From positions 62,001-126,000 of the forward strand of contig JAMXDE010000057.1 of the NCBI GenBank assembly GCA_026770025.1: a DNA stretch of 64,000 nt, in the 5' to 3' direction. A program made the translations under genes and the position numbers. The stretch comes from Craspedostauros australis. Taxonomy: Eukaryota; Bacillariophyta; Bacillariophyceae; Mastogloiales; Achnanthaceae. Positions 52,533-64,000 of this stretch are shown here, piece after piece (positions within the stretch are counted from its first letter, which is position 1; the number at the start of each line of letters is the position of its first letter). The notes below the pieces were generated by a model. It did not search any database and had not been told where the DNA came from. It worked only from the letters and a program-made list of their open reading frames with translations.

Positions 52533-55500
52533 CGTTTCGAAACGTTACAATTGAAATCCTACGTTTCACCCCGCACCAACAAGCCATCATCCACCTTCAT
52601 CATCATCATGAGTACCTACGAGTCCAAGTCCAACCGCATCGTCTACTTCGACGGTAAAAAGGAGAACTGGAAGTTCTGGCATGCCAAGTTCCTCTGTCGC
52701 GCTAACCGCAAGGGTTACCGCGACATGCTCTTGAAGCCCTACTCTGATGCGAAGGTGACTGCTCCCTCCGCTGCAGCCAAGTCCCTGGCAGCAACCATCA
52801 AGTCTGATCCAGGCGCCAAACTCAAGCCGAGTGCCAAGTCCGGTACCAAACCGAGTGCTGCGGATCTAGCGGATTGCAAGGAAGCAATGGCGAAGTTCGC
52901 CTTTGAGGAACTGACCATGGCGATGAACCATGATTCGAAGGAAGGAAAGATTGCCTTCAAGGCGGTGTGGGGATGCGAGGGCATGCTGAATGGGGGAGGA
53001 GACCCTCATGCAGCTTGGGTGGCCCTCGGGCGCATCTACGAGCAACGCACTGCGCCTATGAAGGCAAAGTTGCTGGCGGAGCTCAACGCGATGCGATTGA
53101 AGAAGGGAGAGAATCCGGATCTCTTCTTGACAGACATGGAGGTCCTTCGCAACTGACTGATCGACCAGGAGGTGATCGTTGACGTCGAGCAGCTTAACAT
53201 GCTTGTGCTCAACGCGCTTGGCCGCGAGTACGAGATGGATGTGAAGCTACTCGAACTCAAGTTCCACAGAAAGGAAAGAGAGATGACCGTGGGCGACATC
53301 CGCGAAGCTGTGAGCCTTACCTACGACCGCCACCATCTCAAACATGGTTATAAGCGCGCAGGCAACAGCAGCAATGAGGAGCTCGCTCTGTTCGGAGCTG
53401 GACAGTTCAAGGGAAACTGTCGCAGCTGCGGAGCCTACAGGCACAAAAAGGCGGACTGTTGTGCGCCAGCCAAGGGAGGCAACAACAAGAGAGGCGGTGG
53501 GTCCAAGAAGAAGGGCAACCATGCCGATGCCAAGGGCGGATCCAAGAAAGGTGGATTCAACGGCAAGTGCAACTACTGTGGAAAGGCAGGGCACAAAATC
53601 ATCCAATGCTTCAAGCTGAAGGCAGCAATGAAGGAAGCAGAGAGCGCCAACATGGCGATGGATGGCGACGACGCGATGGACGATATGGCACTCGTCATCG
53701 CAGACAGTGGTTTCGTTGAGATTGACGATCTCGATGAGATCGAACTCGAGGATGGACTCGAAGAGGATCTCTTCGAAATCATGGAGTCGTACCCTTCGAC
53801 CAAGAGAGTCGAACCACCAACCAACCAAGACATTCGCGACCTCATGAACGATGACCTGCTCGAATCAGACGAGAGCATCGGAGTCACGGAAGTCGCAATG
53901 CCAGGCGTCGATGTCAACAATGCGCCACCTACGCAAGAGGAGGAAGCAACAGCTACTCGGATGAGCAGCGCCATCGACTACCTCCTACGTAACGAGATCG
54001 ATCGCGTATGTGAGCGCAACAGAACGGATGCATGGTGTCCAATCTGTCTCGCGTGTGGAGCGATGTACTCGTGGTGCACAGGATGCACCGAATTCGACGT
54101 GTTCAAGATTCGAGCACGCTGGGCGTTCAGAGACATCCCAACGACCACCGAACCTGAAAGGATTCGCTGTCGAGCAATCCTGAGCCGATTCGATTGCGTG
54201 GAAGACGCGGTCAGGGTTTCTCTATCCAACGTATTGGAAGCCAACGATGTGCGTGTTAATGACGCTGTCTTCTGCTTCGATGTGAGAAAGAAATCCATCG
54301 AAGATGGAAGCAACTGCATGGGAAGCAGGGAGCTCTACTACATGCTCACACAGATTGGCCTCAACGGAGTGTTCGACGTATCATGCAAGATTGTGGTCAT
54401 CAACGAGCTGCTCGAGGAAAGACAGCTGCCACTGCTCCCCAAACACTTAATGATGAGGATGAGCAGGATGGCCGCATCACAGCTCATGTGGATGCACAAC
54501 TGGGAGGACACCGAAGTGCGCGACGGGATGGAATGCCCAGAACTCCCCAAGACCAAACCACTTGTGGGAAGTCCTCAACATCAAGTTGAGATGATGGAAC
54601 GCCTTAATGCAGCAAGATTCGGACACGAAATGGCCATGGTGATCGAGGATCACGAGTTGAATGAGAACAACCGCGAGCTGGTTGCACCAGACCAACATGA
54701 AGCTAACCCATGGTTGGGGGATACCGGCGCATCATGTCACTTAACGAACAATGATGAAGGTATGACCAATGTGCGCCTCTCGAATTTCTCTGTGAAGGTG
54801 GGAAGCGAAAAATTCCTCTGCGCCACCAAGGTCGGTGACCTACGCATGAGAGTGATGCAGAAGGACGGCAAGAGCGCCATCATCCTGAAGGGAGTGCGCT
54901 ACGTGCCTAAGCTCTGGGTCAACCTACTCAGCATCGGCAAGGCGCTCCATAACAGATTCAATATCAGCAACAAGGGAGTCATCATCGCACTGGATAAGAA
55001 TGGACAGCGCATCCGATTCGATTGGATCATGGCAACTCACAGCGGATTCGTGCTTGGTGTGAACATGGTGCCTGCCCCTAAGAGCGAAGAGATGGCGAAT
55101 GTCGGGTTTGATACAAAGAAGCCCATGGATGTGAATAAGCTCCATAAAATGCTAGGCCACGTTGACTCTTACACGATCTCCAGGACGGCGAGACAATATG
55201 GATGGAATGTCACTGGAACTCTCAATCCATGCGAGGACTGCGCAATCGGAAAGGCGAAGCAAAAACGCCTGACCAAAACTCTCCAACCACGGGCGAAGAA
55301 GGTCGGAGAACGACTCTTCATGGACACTTCAAGTGTCCAAGCAACAAGCTTCGGACATGGGAAGTACTGGCTCCTGGTCATTGATGACTACAGCGACTAC
55401 TGCTGGGGCTACTTTGTTAAGGAAAAGAGCAAGGTTGGTCCCAAACTACTATCCTTGTTGAAGTGGCTATCAGGCAATCAACAAGTGACAGTGAAGAATG

Positions 55501-56040
55501 TCAGATGTGACAATGCCGGAGAAAATTACAGCGCCGAGGCATTACTGCTGAGGGCAGGCTTCGCCCCAACCTTCGAATACACCGCCGCATCAACTCCTCA
55601 ACAGAACGGAAGAGTGGAACGGAAATTCGCGGTTCTCTACGGTAAGGTCAGGTCAATACTGAACCAGGCGCACCTACCAAGACAACTGCGCGGCAAGCTA
55701 TGGGCAGAGGCAGCAAGGAATGCAACGCAGATTGAGAACATCATCGAGACCAAATCGAGGGATCCTGCGTGTCTACTACTCAACGGACAGACCCCAGCCT
55801 ACGCAAAGGGACTGCATATCTTCGGGGAGATCGGAATGGTCTACATCGGCAGTCGCGCAATCAAAGCGAAACTGGATGACAGATCCAAGCCAACCATGTT
55901 CGTCGGATACGGACAGTCTCATGCGAATGGTGTATACCGCATGATGAACCTGGCAACCACGAGAATCCTAATCACCAGAGACGTGACATGGATGAACCAT
56001 TCGTATGGGCAATTCAAGGGTATTGAGAATGCCAACAGAA
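51739..56040 (+). mobile_element. Truncated Copia element (LTR, gag, protease, integrase)
   Basis: After the 5' LTR: a gag frame from the ATG at 52608 (KKENWKFWHAKFLCRANRKG), two gag zinc knuckles (CRSCGAYRHKKADC and CNYCGKAGHKIIQC), a protease site LGDTGASCHLTN near 54720, pre-integrase LHKMLGHVDSYTI, and the integrase core (LLVIDDYSDYCWGYF, VRCDNAGEN, QQNGRVERKFAV). It stops near 56040, soon after the integrase, with no RT, RNase H or 3' LTR. It is broken: the 3' half is missing and there is at least one other break. A Cys-containing insert of about 280 residues between gag and protease (ICLACGAMYSWCTGC) is unusual. Confidence 0.85.
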
Positions 56041-56694
56041 CACAATGTATTAGCGCAACGCTATATTCCTAACAATAGCGACACCCGTCGACCAATCAGA
56101 AATCTTCTCTTTTCTTACCTTTTCCGTTCCGAACGGAAATTCTGGTCAAAATTCCGTTGTGTCAATTTTGTGTCGCATTTCGCGTCGCAAGAACCGTTTT
56201 CCCGTCAATCCCAGTTCCAACATGTCGCGGAAATGAATTTCTTGCCAAGATGAACCACTCTGCCCAATCAGGACAGACTTGGTCTTGGGTCCGATAAATA
56301 TCCACAAGGAGAAAACCCTTGCGTCAGGACGCAAAAACGGCTTTTCTTGCGTCCTGACGCAACCCCAAAATAAGTTTGCGTCAGGGCGCAACCCGTGTTG
56401 TTTAACCCGCGTAGAATCCAATCGAATTTTCTTTTTAGACTAATACGACTGGTCGGTCCAATTCTTCCTCTCCCAGCACACTCCAGTTCGCTCTGGTTCC
56501 CTCTTGTTTTGGGTGTTGCGACCGTTGGCTTTTCTGCTCTATTGAGTATCGTCGACATGCGGCTTTCCGATGCCGAAGTTGACGTCTGTGTGTTTGTTGG
56601 TGTTGGTTTGCATGTTGTATTCACATCTTCTGCACAACCAAAGACTTTCAGCTGGCTCTTCTCCTTGTCAACCAACATCTATCTACATGCAAAC
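56041..56694. other. 5' flank of the DDE-nuclease gene, with inverted repeats
   Basis: At about 56320-56390 the motif TTGCGTCAGGACGCAA occurs three times: once as written, once as its exact reverse complement 18 bp later, and once as a near copy (TTGCGTCAGGGCGCAA). The first two could form a hairpin. This flank may be part of the DNA element to which the next gene belongs, but I found no terminal inverted repeat. Confidence 0.5.
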
Positions 56695-59600
56695 ATGGAC
56701 TCTCTCTTAGAAGCAATTTCTGGCGTAGAATCCGCCAACGTCGTCGACGTCCCGATGCTTTCCGAGGCTGGTGGGTTGGATGATGGTGACGACGCAGCTC
56801 CTGAGCCTGGGTCCGCTCATGCCACAGGCAGATCCCCTGAGGCATGGGATGCCAACTTGGATACTGCCAATGTTGGAGTATCCGACAACAACAACGTTGC
56901 ATACATGCGGAGCGACGATGAAGGCGCTGTGGAAAATCCCAATGTCCACCCACATTCAGAGGACTTCGGTGCTTTCCCTTCCGCCAAGTTCGGCGTGAGC
57001 CAGGACGTTTGTCTGCCCTCCAGCATTGGTGACTCCGACAAGGTCTTGAACTGGTTGGTGTTGTGCCCAGAGGTGCATCAAACAAAGGTCTCTGTCTCCG
57101 CGGCCCACGACTTCGCTCTCCACAATGCGAGCCATGAGATCCGCAGGGCAAGAGCTGCTGTGTTGCAGCTCTTCCGAAAAGCTGCCCCTGGTTGCCAACC
57201 TTTCGTTCCCACCCATCACCATCTGGTGGATTACTTACTTGGCCGCTCCTCCTCCATCTACACCAATGCATTCGGTCCAGGCGGATTGGGGTTCGAGTAC
57301 CTGGACTATGTTCAGTTCCTTTATGGTTTCTGCGAGCAGATGATTCAAAACGTGACCGTGAAGCGCGTCTACGACTCTGGGGCTGCGACGTACTTGCCCC
57401 ACTTTCCAACGAAGGCAACGTACTTGTCATTGTGGTCCACAATCAGGGACAACGGCGAATCTGGCAACACTGTTGGCCATTGTTTCCTGTGGTCCGATTT
57501 GGAGGCGGCAATCAACACGCCCTTTCAAAAAATCTTCCTCCGCGGCACCAACTCCCATCGTGTGGTCACGCTGGACGACGACAAAGTTCATTGTCGTAGC
57601 TCTGCCGAGAGCAGTTGCTTGCTCAACATGCGCCACACGCAGGCGAACCGCGAAGGGTAAGACTGACAGGATGTATGCGCGTCTTCCAGCATGACTGGAT
57701 GTGTCATTGCTGTTTCTCCAGATCACTCACTCACCTTCGCCTTCCATTTCTACATGAATCCATTCAGTATGACTGTCAACACTTTGGTACAGACAGCATC
57801 AGGGCTTGTTGTGGGGGTTGCTGCGTCTTGCGACGGGATCGACAACGACAACCGTCAGCTCCTTGCACAGCTCGCCCAGACCGACGGCCGTCTCCGCCAT
57901 ACAACACTGATGGCCGACCGAGGCTATCTCAACGAGTCCATCACTCGTGAGTTATTGTCCAAGAGCGCAGACATCGAGGGCACACACATGCGCAGCGGCC
58001 ATCTCCCATTCACCTTCAATCAGTACAATGGAAGCAGCAAACGGCAGATTGATGTTGGCAAGCCAGGCCCAAGACGCTTGTCCATCGCGACGACCACAAG
58101 CATGTCTGGACGCCAATTAGGACTGTATGCATACCGAAACAAACAAAAGGCTGTCCTTGCAATGTCCACAGATACTCCTTCCTTTGCTTGGGACATCAAT
58201 CTCAAGAGCTCACAAGAGCAACAAATGTACCAAGACATGACTAAGAGGAAGGAAGGAGATGATCCAAGATCAGCAACATATCCTCGTTTCTTTCGGCAAT
58301 GCCTCCCCTTGCAGGAGTGTTCATCAACATACCGGACGGCGTCATGTCGTGCCCACAGTGGTACTCCTGGCACACCGTCCCCTTCCTCCAACATTCCAGC
58401 AGCACCTCCAACTGCTGCACTCGCGAAGGATATTCCAGCCACATGCCGGCTCCAGAAATCTTCCACGCCTTCTCGGATCACAAACACAACAAATGAAGAC
58501 GAGACCCGCTTGGCATGGGAAGAGAAGCTGTGGAGTCTGGAGGTTGATGGATTGACATGCGAACAAGGAGACCATCTCTGGTTCGTGCATAGGAGGTACT
58601 CATTCACATCGACGTCAACGTTTGCCATGATCCAGGAGGTCCTCAAGAGTGGTGAGTGGAGCAGCCCAGACAGCGGCCATGTCTTCAACCGAGAAGCGTG
58701 GGAAGACGTCGGGCGGTACATGGGATTCGATATCGCTGGGACGAAAGAAGCATACACAGTGGATGTAGCTCAGCAGAAACACGGATTAGTAGCGTCCAAG
58801 TTTCACACGAAGCTGACCGATCCTACGTATGACTCCCAAGATTTGGAACAATACATGCGTACCGTCGTCGACGAACCAGACGGTGATGATGAAGTGATGC
58901 CCATTGAAGTGCTCACCACCATGATGCACTTATTCTATGGAAGTCGGAACAGGCGCAAACCCTCCACCCTGAGAGCGATGCTTGGAAACATCCTGGACGA
59001 ACCAGACAAGCTCAGGCAGAGATTCATGGCCATGAACACAGTGACTTTGAAGAGACAGCTAAGTCTGCGCTTCCCAACACAGACAGAAACCGACGCATCA
59101 AACGAACAAATGATTGACCGGCTGATCGCAGCGACAATGAATAAGCCAAACTCAAAGGAAGAGAGAGCAACACCAGTTTCTGACAACGAAGCTGACACAC
59201 CCTGGATGTCGTCATTGAAGACTTCGTTGGCGTCGACCATGCTACGAACCTGGTTCATGACGCCACTTCGCGGGAAAGCAGCGAAAGATGCAAAACTGGG
59301 CCACAACAATGAGTTGCCGTTGATACGGAAAGCAATGGAGACCATGAAAGTGGATGGCGAGCGTTCTCGAATCAAGGCAGCATATCGGTCAGGGCTGGTA
59401 TGCAGGAAAGATGCCAGGTACGCCCGTGCTTCGGTAGACTTCCTGGCTGTGGTGGGAGACCCGGGCAGCAGCACTACAGATGAAGTATGTGTGGTTGAGG
59501 TGAAAACCAGAACCAACACCACAACGCAAGACATGGAAACAGCACACCAGCAGGGCGCGCGGGTGCGTGGTGATCTCGGAGAAGGGAATCATGTGTTCGT

Positions 59601-59721
59601 GGATAGGCAAGACCGACGCTGGCTGGCACTGTTCCGAAGGCGGTCGGAAATGATTCAACTGTTGCATCATTCATATGTTTTCGGAGTTCCAGGGGTGCTG
59701 ATGATTATAGGTAAGCATTGA
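56695..59721 (+). CDS. DDE-type transposase fused to a YqaJ-like PD-(D/E)XK nuclease
   Basis: The first exon runs from the ATG at 56695 to 57656 and the next from 57690. The 33-bp gap has GT-AG ends and keeps frame, but is so short that a simple frame change is also possible. Total is about 995 residues. The first part has an acidic Ser/Asp-rich leader, then a DDE-like domain: LVDYLLGRSSSIYTNAFG, HRVVTLDDDKVHCRSS, FHFYMNPFSMTVNTLVQ, HTTLMADRGYLNES, and GLYAYRNKQKAVLAMS. This order resembles PiggyBac-like cores. The C-terminal 150 residues look like a PD-(D/E)XK nuclease of the YqaJ/alkaline-exonuclease type: HNNELPLIRKAMETM (motif I Glu), RASVDFLAVV (Asp), VCVVEVKTRT (E-x-K) and HQQGARVRGDLGEGNHVFV. 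A GTAAG donor at 59711 and acceptors at 59754/59760 could give a short third exon to 59864. A degraded relative lies at 14969-17433. Confidence 0.65.
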
Positions 59722-60046
59722 TGTTCGGTTCGCGCGCCGGATGGATGCTTGCAGTCGCAGTCTGGACTCGATTCTCACCACATTACGTCTGTTTTCTTCC
59801 CATCCTTACGTTCGTGGCACACCCGGATCCTCTTTTGGAGAAGGTGATGCCACGGGGAACGTAATCCAAACTATGGCAACTAGGTTTGAATCGTCTCTCA
59901 TCCAATCCTATTGTACTGTGCTACAAGACCTCCACAAGCTCATGTTGGCATTTGCATACACGGAGGCCGGTACGAAACCAACCTCAACTCCATCCTGGAA
60001 ATTTCTGGAAAGCTACCTCCAAACCAAACGGAATCCTCACAAGAGG
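59722..60046. other. Stretch between the DDE-nuclease gene and the DIRS-like element
   Basis: It may hold a short final exon (about 59755-59864) of the DDE-nuclease gene. The frame at 59741-60052 has no family motif. Confidence 0.4.
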
Positions 60047-60230
60047 GGCTAATCCATAGACACATAGCTTTTGTCTGCGTTGGGTGGTAGTGCTACTAGC
60101 ACCTTCAAGCTTGCCTTGAATCATCCGGCTCGTTCCCTCCAGGCCAATTTCGTTTCAAGTCTCTGCCTCGGCTGTTCGCGTTGGTGTTGACTGATTCGAT
60201 CTTGGTTGGAGGGAGAGCGCTGGAATCCCC
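60047..60230. repeat. Split direct repeat B2
   Basis: 184 bp from GGCTAATCCATAGACACATA to GCTGGAATCCCC; repeated at 60817-61000. Confidence 0.92.
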
Positions 60231-60816: not shown

Positions 60817-61000
60817 GGCTAATCCATAGACACATAGCTTTTGTCTGCGTTGGGTGGTAGTGCTACTAGCACCTTCAAGCTTGCCTTGAATCATCTGGCT
60901 CGTTCCCTCCAGGCCAATTTCGTTTCAAGTCTCTGCCTTGGCTGTTCGCGTTGGTGTTGACTGATTCGATCTTGGTTGGAGGGAGAGCGCTGGAATCCCC
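60817..61000. repeat. Split direct repeat B1
   Basis: 184 bp, two mismatches against B2. Confidence 0.92.
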
Positions 61001-61144: not shown

Positions 61145-62785
61145 TCACATGCAAAGCGCGGTGATTGCTAGTCGGTCAGCGAGTGGCCATTGAAGGTACG
61201 CTGTCGGCATATCCTCGTTGGCGCGTTGGCGCCGCCATTTGCCGTGCTCTGAGACCTCCAGCTTGGTGGCTGCGCGCATGCATCCTGGCCGCTGTCTGGA
61301 GACGTGTGTGCGTCCCCCTCGTTGGTACATGTGGAAGGAGTAAAACCTGGTGGGAATGGGCGTGTCTTGTGCGCCGATTGCCGAGCGCAGGAAAGTGTCA
61401 CCGCGTTGTTGTTGCTCCAGCAAGGACGGGTACGCGAAGGTTGTGCGGTAGAAATGCGACGTCCACGGTTGCCCCGAAGGATGATGCACCACGAGGTCGG
61501 TCGGGATGCGATGGTCCCGTTCCGCGCGCGCTCGCAGCAGCCATTCGCCGAGACTGAGGCCTGATGAGGTGTGGAAGGCGACGACCACATCGGCTTGCCG
61601 GCTGCGGTTGGACTTCGTTTGCATGGCGAGACGCAGAAGGACTGCGCCTGTGTTTGGCGGGAGGTCGTTGTTGCTGGCGTCGCGTGGTTCGAGAATAGTG
61701 ATGTCTGACCACGAGATGCCGAAGGCTTCTGCGGCCCGTAGCCATCCCAGCCATCCCACAAGGTTGATGATGCCTGCCATTGCCGCTGTTCGTCGCTGTT
61801 GTGTTGTGACTGCATGTTGGTATTGATGCAGGAAGCATCGGTCCATGAAGTGGACGTGGCGAGAGAGCAGGGCGGCTGATGGTCGCGAATCTTCGCCGAG
61901 ACGTGTTCGCATGCCTTGTGTCAGCATCGAGTATCCGAGGTGATCTGTTTGAAGGCATTCATCGACGATAACAGGGCGTTGCTTGGCGTCGAGCATGGCG
62001 CGCTCAGGATGCGCAATGCACATGTTCCATGTGCCGAACGCTGATGCTGCGCTGCGCAGGCCACGCACGGTGCTGAACTTGATGGCTTGGTCGCCGAGTG
62101 TGTTCCTGCGTGAGGGTACCTGCGTGGCGTAGTGTTCCTGCGCCCACATGATCGGGATTGTCTCAGAGTAGGGTGGCGATTGGATGTCGGGTGGCTGCAG
62201 GGTAGGGACGCCATGTTGGAGACCGAACTTGCGCAGTACTCGAATCTTGCTGCTGTAGGTGGTGAGAGTACCCGACGCCCAATTGTGCGCTAGGTCGATG
62301 ATACGCATGCGTTCCAAACGGAGGAGATGGAGGTCCGTGTGGCTGGGGACCAATTCTCGCTGGAGATGTACTCGGACCGTGCATGCCTCGCACACGAAGA
62401 GACCCAAAATACTGAGGTTGGGTGGCAGCGTGAGACCCTTATGGTTGCGTAGGCGTGTTCGGAAGGGAGGCCCCACTCGCCAGCATAGCTTGTGATATCG
62501 GGTGTGGCATGCCTGGTAGGGGACACCATTGTGCATGAACCCGGTGTCGGCGAAGTGGCATTGGTGTGCTGTTGTGTGTCGGTTGATGCTCTTAGCACAA
62601 CCCGTGCAGACGCTCGGCGATCCGTTGGTGATGCCGTCGATTCCGGGAGCGGGGAGCAAAGTCCAGTCTGGGAGGAGTGAGAGAGCGAATGTGGGGAGAG
62701 ACACGGAGGAGAAGATTAGGAATATTGAGAGGAGAAGAAGAAGAGAGATGCAGATCGTCGTTGGTGAACACTCCAACTCGGACAA
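61145..62785 (-). CDS. Tyrosine recombinase of the DIRS-like element
   Basis: The open frame is about 546 codons. A Cys/His-rich zinc-finger-like region comes first (CTGCAKSINRHTTAHQCH, CHTRYHKLCW, FVCEACTV). The catalytic domain shows LGWLRAAEAFGISWSDI (box I Arg), FHMYQRGGRTHV (the H-x3-R-G-G form of box II) and EHGKWRR...AYLQW (final Tyr). It replaces the integrase of ordinary LTR elements and inserts a circular DNA copy without target duplication. Its frame overlaps the RT-RNase H frame by about 190 bp, as is common in the family. Confidence 0.85.
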   Translation of the reverse strand: MSELECSPTTICISLLLLLSIFLIFSSVSLPTFALSLLPDWTLLPAPGIDGITNGSPSVCTGCAKSINRHTTAHQCHFADTGFMHNGVPYQACHTRYHKLCWRVGPPFRTRLRNHKGLTLPPNLSILGLFVCEACTVRVHLQRELVPSHTDLHLLRLERMRIIDLAHNWASGTLTTYSSKIRVLRKFGLQHGVPTLQPPDIQSPPYSETIPIMWAQEHYATQVPSRRNTLGDQAIKFSTVRGLRSAASAFGTWNMCIAHPERAMLDAKQRPVIVDECLQTDHLGYSMLTQGMRTRLGEDSRPSAALLSRHVHFMDRCFLHQYQHAVTTQQRRTAAMAGIINLVGWLGWLRAAEAFGISWSDITILEPRDASNNDLPPNTGAVLLRLAMQTKSNRSRQADVVVAFHTSSGLSLGEWLLRARAERDHRIPTDLVVHHPSGQPWTSHFYRTTFAYPSLLEQQQRGDTFLRSAIGAQDTPIPTRFYSFHMYQRGGRTHVSRQRPGCMRAATKLEVSEHGKWRRQRANEDMPTAYLQWPLADRLAITALCM

Positions 62786-64000
62786 GGTGACGTGAGAGTC
62801 TGACGAAAGTGCGTTGAAGCACTCGTGGGACGAGGATGACGAATCCAGTGTCCAGAGGTTGTTCTGCCCAGCACCCCAGTAGGAAGTAGATCAGTTGGTA
62901 GGCGAGCTCCGGTGGTGGTGCCCACAGGGTGATGCGGTTCATGCAGTCCTCGGGGTTCCACGGACGGTCCCACCGACGGAGTAGTATGGTCGTGGGAGTG
63001 TCGGGGAAGGCGAGTGACGCAATCTGAGGGACATGCTGCTCCTGGAGTGGTGTCGGGGCCAGACAGGCGGATAGGATCTGTGATGATGTTGGCCGTTGGT
63101 GGGCGGCGTTGATCCATATTCCGCGGCTGAGTCCGTCGGTTCCCTCTGTGATGATGGCAGTGCCGGGGATGTGGATGACCTGGAGGTGGCATGATAAGCG
63201 GAGCTCGAGCTGTTTGATCTTCCGGACCAGCTTGTGTAGTTCCGGTGAGGTGGAAGTGCCTCCATCGACAACACAGTAGGTGCACATGTTGTCGGTGAAG
63301 TAGAAAAAAGTGGCGCCGAAGACGTCGGCAGCGGTCGTTGGGTTGTTGGCTACCTGTTGTAGGGTGCTGAGCAGAGTGCGTAGCTCCTTCCAGTTGGAGG
63401 AGTGGCGTGTGGCCACAAGGGACGACCATGTACCCATCCACATGCATGAGGGTTGGTTGGGGAAAAGGATGGTACCCCCGGTGCCTGTACCACTGCCATC
63501 ACCAAAACTGCTGACGAGGACGCCGGTCCGTGTTGCACGACCGCTCCGTGCCGTGTCGTTGATGAGTGCTGCTCGCCACCATTGGAGGTCTTGTGTGACC
63601 GCGGGTGAGATGGCCGTGTAGCTGAAGTAGGGGAGATCCGGTTGATCCCACTCATGTGGATGTACGAGGGCGTATAGAGCTCGGAGGTAGTTGCGACCGA
63701 GGTATGATGGTGTGGCCTCTGCCACGCTTTCGAGCATACCCGCTAGGACCGCGAGGGCGAGCCGGGAGACTCTTGCGGGTGCAGCCGAGACGTAGTCCAT
63801 CACAGCGACGATCTTGTCCCGTTTGAGAGGTGGGATGCGTAGGCGTGGGGTAGCTGTGGTATCGAAGATCAACCCGGTGTATTTGACGACTTGACTGGGC
63901 GGGGTGAGTTTGCTGGGGTGGCAGAGCAGGCCGCAGTCCACTGATAGATCAAGGAAAGCTGATAGCGCCGCCGAGGTCTTGCGCCGTGTGGGTCCGTGGA
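62592..64000 (-). CDS. RT C-terminal part and RNase H of the DIRS-like element (partial)
   Basis: The frame enters from beyond the window. The visible part starts at the RT thumb (LSAFLDLSVDCGLLCHPSKL, KYTGLIFDT) and continues through a connection region (LQWWRAALINDTARSG). The RNase H domain follows (SSFGDGSGTGTGGTILF, SSNWKELRTLLSTLQQ, FYFTDNMCTYCVVDGG, HIPGTAIITEGTDGLSRG). The catalytic RT motifs lie beyond 64000. Confidence 0.82.
   Translation of the reverse strand, partial: HGPTRRKTSAALSAFLDLSVDCGLLCHPSKLTPPSQVVKYTGLIFDTTATPRLRIPPLKRDKIVAVMDYVSAAPARVSRLALAVLAGMLESVAEATPSYLGRNYLRALYALVHPHEWDQPDLPYFSYTAISPAVTQDLQWWRAALINDTARSGRATRTGVLVSSFGDGSGTGTGGTILFPNQPSCMWMGTWSSLVATRHSSNWKELRTLLSTLQQVANNPTTAADVFGATFFYFTDNMCTYCVVDGGTSTSPELHKLVRKIKQLELRLSCHLQVIHIPGTAIITEGTDGLSRGIWINAAHQRPTSSQILSACLAPTPLQEQHVPQIASLAFPDTPTTILLRRWDRPWNPEDCMNRITLWAPPPELAYQLIYFLLGCWAEQPLDTGFVILVPRVLQRTFVRLSRHLVRVGVFTNDDLHLSSSSPLNIPNLLLRVSPHIRSLTPPRLDFAPRSRNRRHHQRIAERLHGLC

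Follow-up and report, generated by a model that had tools for sequence, protein, structure and literature searches.

The 64,000-nucleotide stretch of the Craspedostauros australis genome analysed here (the window) carries, close to its right-hand end, a copy of a repeated element whose gene and terminal features are collected in Table 1. The initial annotation described positions 56695-59721 as one open gene joining a DDE transposase to a nuclease. The motifs that it named are all found at the place claimed, in the claimed order and frame: LDDDK (57571-57585) and ADRGY (57913-57927) in the translated frame of the window copy and, further downstream, NE as part of an NNE ending in Glu at 59311-59313, SVDFLAVV with its Asp at 59437-59439, and EVKTR with Glu at 59497-59499 and Lys at 59503-59505. 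The extent of the gene had to be redrawn, since the frame is interrupted by two stops, TAA at 57658 and TGA at 57664, and the gene continues past 59721. Comparison of the copies placed both stops inside a GT..AG intron (57657-57767), which accounts for them and rules out reading the span as one uninterrupted frame. This intron is 111 nt long; a 33-nt intron guessed by eye was dropped. One comparison of 20 loci showed exon 1 ending at the same codon, with a GTAAG donor, in 19 of them, L028 being the one locus without an exon-1 match; the donor is also present in the window copy and in 16 loci whose sequence was printed. At the second intron, an acceptor in the right phase was read by eye in 11 of 15 loci; in L023, L041, L044 and L046 it lies beyond the printed sequence.

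Table 1. Features of the window copy and of the DNA that interrupts it (positions in the window)
Feature	Position	Strand	Evidence or remark
ATAT flank (target-site duplication, 5' copy)	56298..56301	.	ATAT at the ends of other copies and at one empty site
Left terminal inverted repeat, CCACAAGGA	56302..56310	+	L021 and L022 have it inverted at their right end
Subterminal 16-bp palindrome 1 (TTGCGTCAGGACGCAA)	56319..56334	.	L021 and L022 have it too, near their right end
Subterminal palindrome 2	56347..56362	.	
Subterminal palindrome 3, imperfect	56376..56391	.	
Exon 1: N-terminal part and first catalytic Asp block LDDDK	56695..57656	+	open frame; start codon assumed
Intron 1, phase 2, with in-frame TAA and TGA	57657..57767	+	conserved GTAAG donor
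Exon 2: DDE part to second Asp (57916-57918, DRGY), strand VLAMST, middle helical region, nuclease-like domain	57768..59710	+	
Middle region, predicted all-helical	58603..59142	+	model blocks 531-710, mean pLDDT 64-90
PD-(D/E)XK-like nuclease domain	59251..59710	+	Glu 59311, Asp 59437, Glu 59497, Lys 59503, Gln 59656
Intron 2, phase 1	59711..59843	+	GT at the same codon in 15/15 loci printed
Exon 3, 5' piece only	59844..60046	+	96% identical to L021 exon 3 residues 1-71
184-nt direct repeat of the interrupting DNA	60047..60230	.	second copy 60817-61000; absent from L021 and L022 here

Exon 3 of the window copy is broken off at 60046 by other DNA, and its block WNAFKGGSD, which holds the third Asp, is located outside the window. 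The remainder of this exon (residues 67-522) is found about 16.7 kb further on, beyond the window, at G000:C55:138782-140149, where it is 98% identical to L021 and contains two in-frame TGA codons. The window copy is most simply viewed as a full element split by a later insertion and, being split and having two stops in its exon-3 remainder, it is probably dead.

The DNA breaking exon 3 starts with two 184-nt direct repeats, 99% identical and 770 nt apart. On the opposite strand follow two open reading frames, 61145-62785 and 62592-63941, which by eye resemble a tyrosine-recombinase (DIRS/Ngaro-like) retroelement; the frame 62592-63941 gave no meaningful Pfam match. Just upstream of the transposon copy, at 52551-56072, lies a Copia-type retrotransposon with a gag-like ORF (recognized by eye) and a 966-aa frame matching Pol_BBD, SH3_retrovirus and, weakly, rve, this frame stopping after the integrase part.

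Copies, ends and target site

The second half of the gene matches at least 118 places in the host genome (74.8 Mb, 90 contigs), a lower bound that grouping by hand reduces to about 60 related loci. The same genome yields 61 light-harvesting protein matches; the single gene read among these has its nearest PDB counterparts in LHCI and fucoxanthin chlorophyll a/c antenna proteins, in keeping with a photosynthetic alga, plausibly one with chlorophyll a/c, as in stramenopiles. The exon layout is kept in all of the approximately 20 loci read. Fourteen other exon-2 sequences, 30-47% identical to that of the window, retain the motifs, and of the 19 loci that have both exon 1 and exon 2, 12 carry no stop in either. 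Exon 3 was matched in each of the 19 loci searched with it (84 places genome-wide); every one of these also has exon 2, and 18 have exon 1, the exception again being L028. In L021, exon 3 (L021 5741-7306) comprises 522 residues, and the protein would be about 1,490 residues long if the three exons are joined. Exon 3 carries a Cys-rich stretch and the motif WNxxKGGSD, of which WN and KGGSD are invariant in 12/12 exon-3 rows; LDDDK and its surroundings are likewise invariant in 11/11 exon-1 rows. The proposal that a single gene combines a piggyBac-like DDE core with a nuclease-like motif set is borne out, as is the reality of the repeated element, whose copies keep the two together. Some pairs of copies are 98-99.9% alike, which suggests that the element has moved recently. 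In the L041, L042 and L043 subfamilies, exon 2 is roughly 260-370 residues longer, the extra length being largely Ser/Thr-rich low-complexity sequence between the middle region and the nuclease-like domain. Outside the host genome, one pattern-based scan of IMG/VR returned 19 stretches, among which no relative was confirmed.

L021 and L022 each measure about 5.3 kb, and it is through them that the terminal inverted repeat was paired, the right end of the window copy being outside the window. ATAT directly abutting a terminal CCA was read at 17/17 of the 5' ends and 17/19 of the 3' ends printed for other copies, in a comparison where many copies are close relatives and where the 3' ends of L023 and L024 were not located. 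One clean empty site was obtained by setting L025 against the insertion at L030: ATAT is present once in L025 and twice at the insertion. Matches to the flanks at L032 and L036 yielded no clean empty site. Palindromes of 16 bp occur near the ends of the window copy, L021-L024, L026 and L028; L029 and L039 have related GTCTC/GAGAC palindromes at their right ends, and imperfect ones are seen in L025, L027, L033 and L034; the pattern of the first palindrome is absent from L040-L045.

The DDE core and its relation to piggyBac

The initial annotation had called the DDE core piggyBac-like, and profile comparison agrees with this. With hhalign and a three-sequence piggyBac template, the DDE part of exons 1 and 2 scored 34.8, the best of 100 column shuffles reaching 20.4. 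A profile that also included the exon-3 core, joined to it by us, scored 35.8 against the same three-sequence template (best of 100 shuffles, 23.6), and in this alignment D1, D2, GTxR, VLxxST and NxxKGGxD are collinear with piggyBac. For exon 3 by itself the score was 19.0, a value exceeded by at least 6 of 100 shuffles, and the best alignment of this exon put KGGSD on the GVD motif of piggyBac. When the joined profile was compared with a single sequence, L049, the score was 19.1, no better than 40 shuffles (up to 28.4). L049 is an ordinary piggyBac-type sequence of the host, which matches piggyBat 9c0f at E 2.3e-7 and piggyBac 6x67 at 0.0016.

The Pfam piggyBac family DDE_Tnp_1_7, which has 160 matches elsewhere in the host genome, matched none of 11 exon-1, 11 exon-2 and 12 exon-3 sequences; the only transposase family to appear was DDE_Tnp_1, below the cut-off. 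PDB sequence searches with the exon profiles gave nothing relevant up to E 5, and the PHROG search gave matches at chance level only. A Foldseek search with the structure model of exons 1 and 2 returned no match at E ≤ 0.001; piggyBat 9c0f stood at rank 2 with a non-significant E of 0.56, behind an unrelated enzyme. The piggyBac kinship of exons 1 and 2 is well supported, and the Asp of exon 3 is likely, though not proven, to be the third catalytic Asp that completes the active site.

piggyBac inserts at TTAA, and its ends are CCC. The element shares with piggyBac and piggyBat the order of the DDD motifs, the GTxR and VLxxST blocks and a putative third Asp in NxxKGGxD, as well as a four-bp palindromic target made of A and T only, a C-terminal Cys-rich stretch and C-rich ends (CCA here). 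It differs from them in that the duplicated target is ATAT instead of TTAA, and in having a nuclease-like domain, two introns and no Pfam piggyBac match. A further likeness is the subterminal palindrome near bp 17-33, which in the window copy occupies bp 18-33 of the left end; in piggyBac, according to the portion of PMC7351741 drawn upon, a dimer of the CRD binds bp 17-33, a palindromic repeat.

The nuclease-like domain and its probable place in the fold

The downstream motifs form a set of five residues, Glu, Asp, Glu-x-Lys and Gln, that is identical in all 14 nuclease-domain rows (window included), although these rows differ from the window by 45-61%. Their order is that of the YqaJ/lambda exonuclease family in 14/14 rows, the correspondence with lambda exonuclease, whose residues have known catalytic roles, being drawn by eye. 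The assignment to that family made in the initial annotation was not upheld. Compared by hhalign with six YqaJ/lambda exonuclease sequences, the domain scored 14.8, the best of 200 shuffles reaching 22.3, and Pfam YqaJ matched none of 11 members at E 0.1. (The sole Pfam YqaJ match in the genome, E 1.6e-17, is in a 365-aa frame at G000:C25:34761-35165, outside the loci of the transposon family.) On the Asp-ExK stretch of the window copy, two sub-threshold Pfam matches were seen, Endonuc_Holl (E 0.11) and UPF0102 (E 0.23), which we take to be PD-(D/E)XK-related nuclease families; neither was listed at E 0.1 in the Pfam scan of 11 members.

In the model of exons 1 and 2, which was made with intron 1 read through and has a mean pLDDT of 56.9, the domain is predicted to run helix-strand-strand-strand-helix-helix-strand (block pLDDT 42-82), with the conserved residues on the expected elements. 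Modelled alone, it has a mean pLDDT of 45.7 (blocks 30-60), and among the best 50 Foldseek matches listed for the exon 1 and 2 model no PD-(D/E)XK-type nuclease stood out. Because the profile comparison failed and the models and the fold search are weak, the domain is named PD-(D/E)XK-like here and is not filed under YqaJ. The middle region that precedes it (58603-59142) gave no convincing Pfam family; it contains TCxQxD..WF and a stretch that, by eye, looks SAP-like.

Judged by substitution rates, the nuclease-like part is under purifying selection in two of the three groups of copies compared. In the L033 group, this part has a dN/dS of 0.08 and the other parts have 0.17-0.30, which makes it the most constrained part of the gene there; these values are summed over nine pairs that share the reference L033, the partner having a stop in six of them. 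The L025 group gives 0.27 for the nuclease, no lower than the values of other parts, and in the L021/L022 pair the nuclease value is 1.25, on only five changes, the DDE part of exon 2 giving 0.95.

The position of the domain had been given as C-terminal. This fusion was dropped once exon 3, with its WNxxKGGSD, was found downstream: with exon 3 joined, the domain seems to lie between the second and third Asp, and an internal insertion replaces the C-terminal fusion. In 11 of 12 loci (L025 has no matching pattern end), 581-993 residues, 622 in L021, separate the VLxxST strand and an F-x-WD block from KGGSD, and this stretch contains the helical region and the nuclease-like domain. The piggyBac fold, as described in part of PMC7351741, is interrupted after its fifth strand by an insertion domain, residues 372-433, which precedes the helix with D447 and touches hairpin and target DNA. 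Judged by the motifs on either side, the nuclease-like domain would sit where piggyBac has this small domain, of 62 residues in the same portion of PMC7351741 as against 581-993 here.

Somewhat more likely than not, the transposase has a PD-(D/E)XK-like nuclease, together with a helical region, set between its second and its third catalytic Asp. A decidedly improbable alternative holds that there are two products: retention of intron 2 would yield a protein with D1, D2 and the nuclease and no third Asp, exon 3 being made separately, so that the nuclease-bearing protein would be an incomplete transposase. Indeed, the frame of exon 2 extends some residues into intron 2 in several copies, and ORF3 has its own ATG in L021. 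Weighing against it, the donor is at the same codon in 15/15 loci, with a right-phase acceptor in the 11 where it was printed, and in 13 of 19 loci the homology in exon 3 starts at the splice point (ORF3 residue 34-35) instead of the ATG. Another improbable reading concerns the domain itself, which might be no nuclease at all, its E/D/ExK/Q set having arisen by convergence in a DNA-binding or structural insertion domain. This would fit the want of a convincing Pfam, PHROG or PDB sequence match and the weakness of the structure models; it accords poorly with five residues invariant in 14/14 rows despite such divergence, with a predicted alpha-beta-beta-beta-alpha order that places them on the expected elements, and with the sub-threshold matches to two nuclease-type Pfam families.

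Possible mechanism and related systems

We presume that splicing joins the three exons to encode one protein, that the Asp of exon 3 completes its active site and that the nuclease-like domain cuts DNA. The explanation that we prefer, with somewhat better than an even chance, is a cut-and-paste DNA transposon of about 5.3 kb with a three-exon gene, encoding a piggyBac-like DDD transposase in which the nuclease-like domain is embedded. The DDD core would cut the 3' ends of the transposon, make and reopen flanking hairpins as in piggyBac, and join the ends at ATAT as piggyBac does at TTAA; ATAT being self-complementary, seamless excision is possible. The embedded nuclease may, with considerable doubt, cut or trim the second (flank) strand during excision, a role favoured because the nuclease is placed where piggyBac contacts hairpin and target. 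A bolder form of the idea, somewhat short of an even chance, is that, in a eukaryotic transposon lineage, the insertion domain of a piggyBac-type RNase H fold has given way to an active PD-(D/E)XK nuclease. One polypeptide would then have two different nuclease active sites, which would act jointly on the transposon ends, with a new ATAT specificity.

The main rival to second-strand cutting keeps the same architecture and makes the nuclease an exonuclease that works after excision, resecting the donor site or the transposon ends and steering repair toward copying from the sister, a role that could also be supposed for the separate YqaJ ORF of ISL2EU elements. By eye there is a likeness to lambda exonuclease, both in the Gln of EMIQLLHH and in the E-D-ExK order, and ISL2EU elements pair a DDE transposase with a YqaJ ORF (PMC4482050, in the part consulted); on the other side, the profile match to YqaJ is not significant and a place inside the DDE fold suggests a role in the transpososome. 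Post-excision resection is on balance unlikely.

For the preferred second-strand role, Tn7 offers a possible analogy. In Tn7, the PD-(D/E)XK nuclease TnsA and the DDE transposase TnsB act on opposite strands, and the two are separate or end-to-end fused proteins. The proposed likeness is that a nuclease and a DDE transposase would divide their labour over two strands; the difference is that the nuclease is here embedded inside the transposase. ISL2EU elements (IS4EU, PHIS superfamily) are alike in that one element carries both a DDE transposase and a nuclease. In the parts of PMC4482050 and PMC9179366 that were drawn upon, their YqaJ is a separate ORF of unknown role, and the former describes a THAP/HTH transposase, an AT duplication and ends that are usually GG. 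Here, by contrast, there is one gene, the nuclease lies inside the same exon, the target is ATAT, the ends are CCA and kinship with YqaJ was not found. KolobokP, as presented in the excerpt of PMC9587614 used, is also a eukaryotic DDD/E transposon that took up a nuclease, in that case a His-Me finger nuclease of homing-endonuclease origin, in another superfamily and with another architecture. Among the titles and abstracts covered, which took in few subscription journals, none describes a YqaJ or PD-(D/E)XK domain inside a piggyBac-like transposase, and we read the element as a piggyBac-like transposon of a new arrangement, in which a PD-(D/E)XK-like nuclease is embedded.

piggyBac is a widely used tool in genome engineering. 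If the reading is true, a single protein would combine piggyBac's DDE chemistry with a second nuclease, located at the very place where piggyBac meets flank and target, and the family would constitute a natural experiment on the function of the insertion domain and on a target shift from TTAA to ATAT. It would also tie the element, in a way open to testing, to the as yet unexplained YqaJ ORF in ISL2EU elements, and could reveal a new way in which mobile DNA processes or repairs the sites that it leaves and enters.
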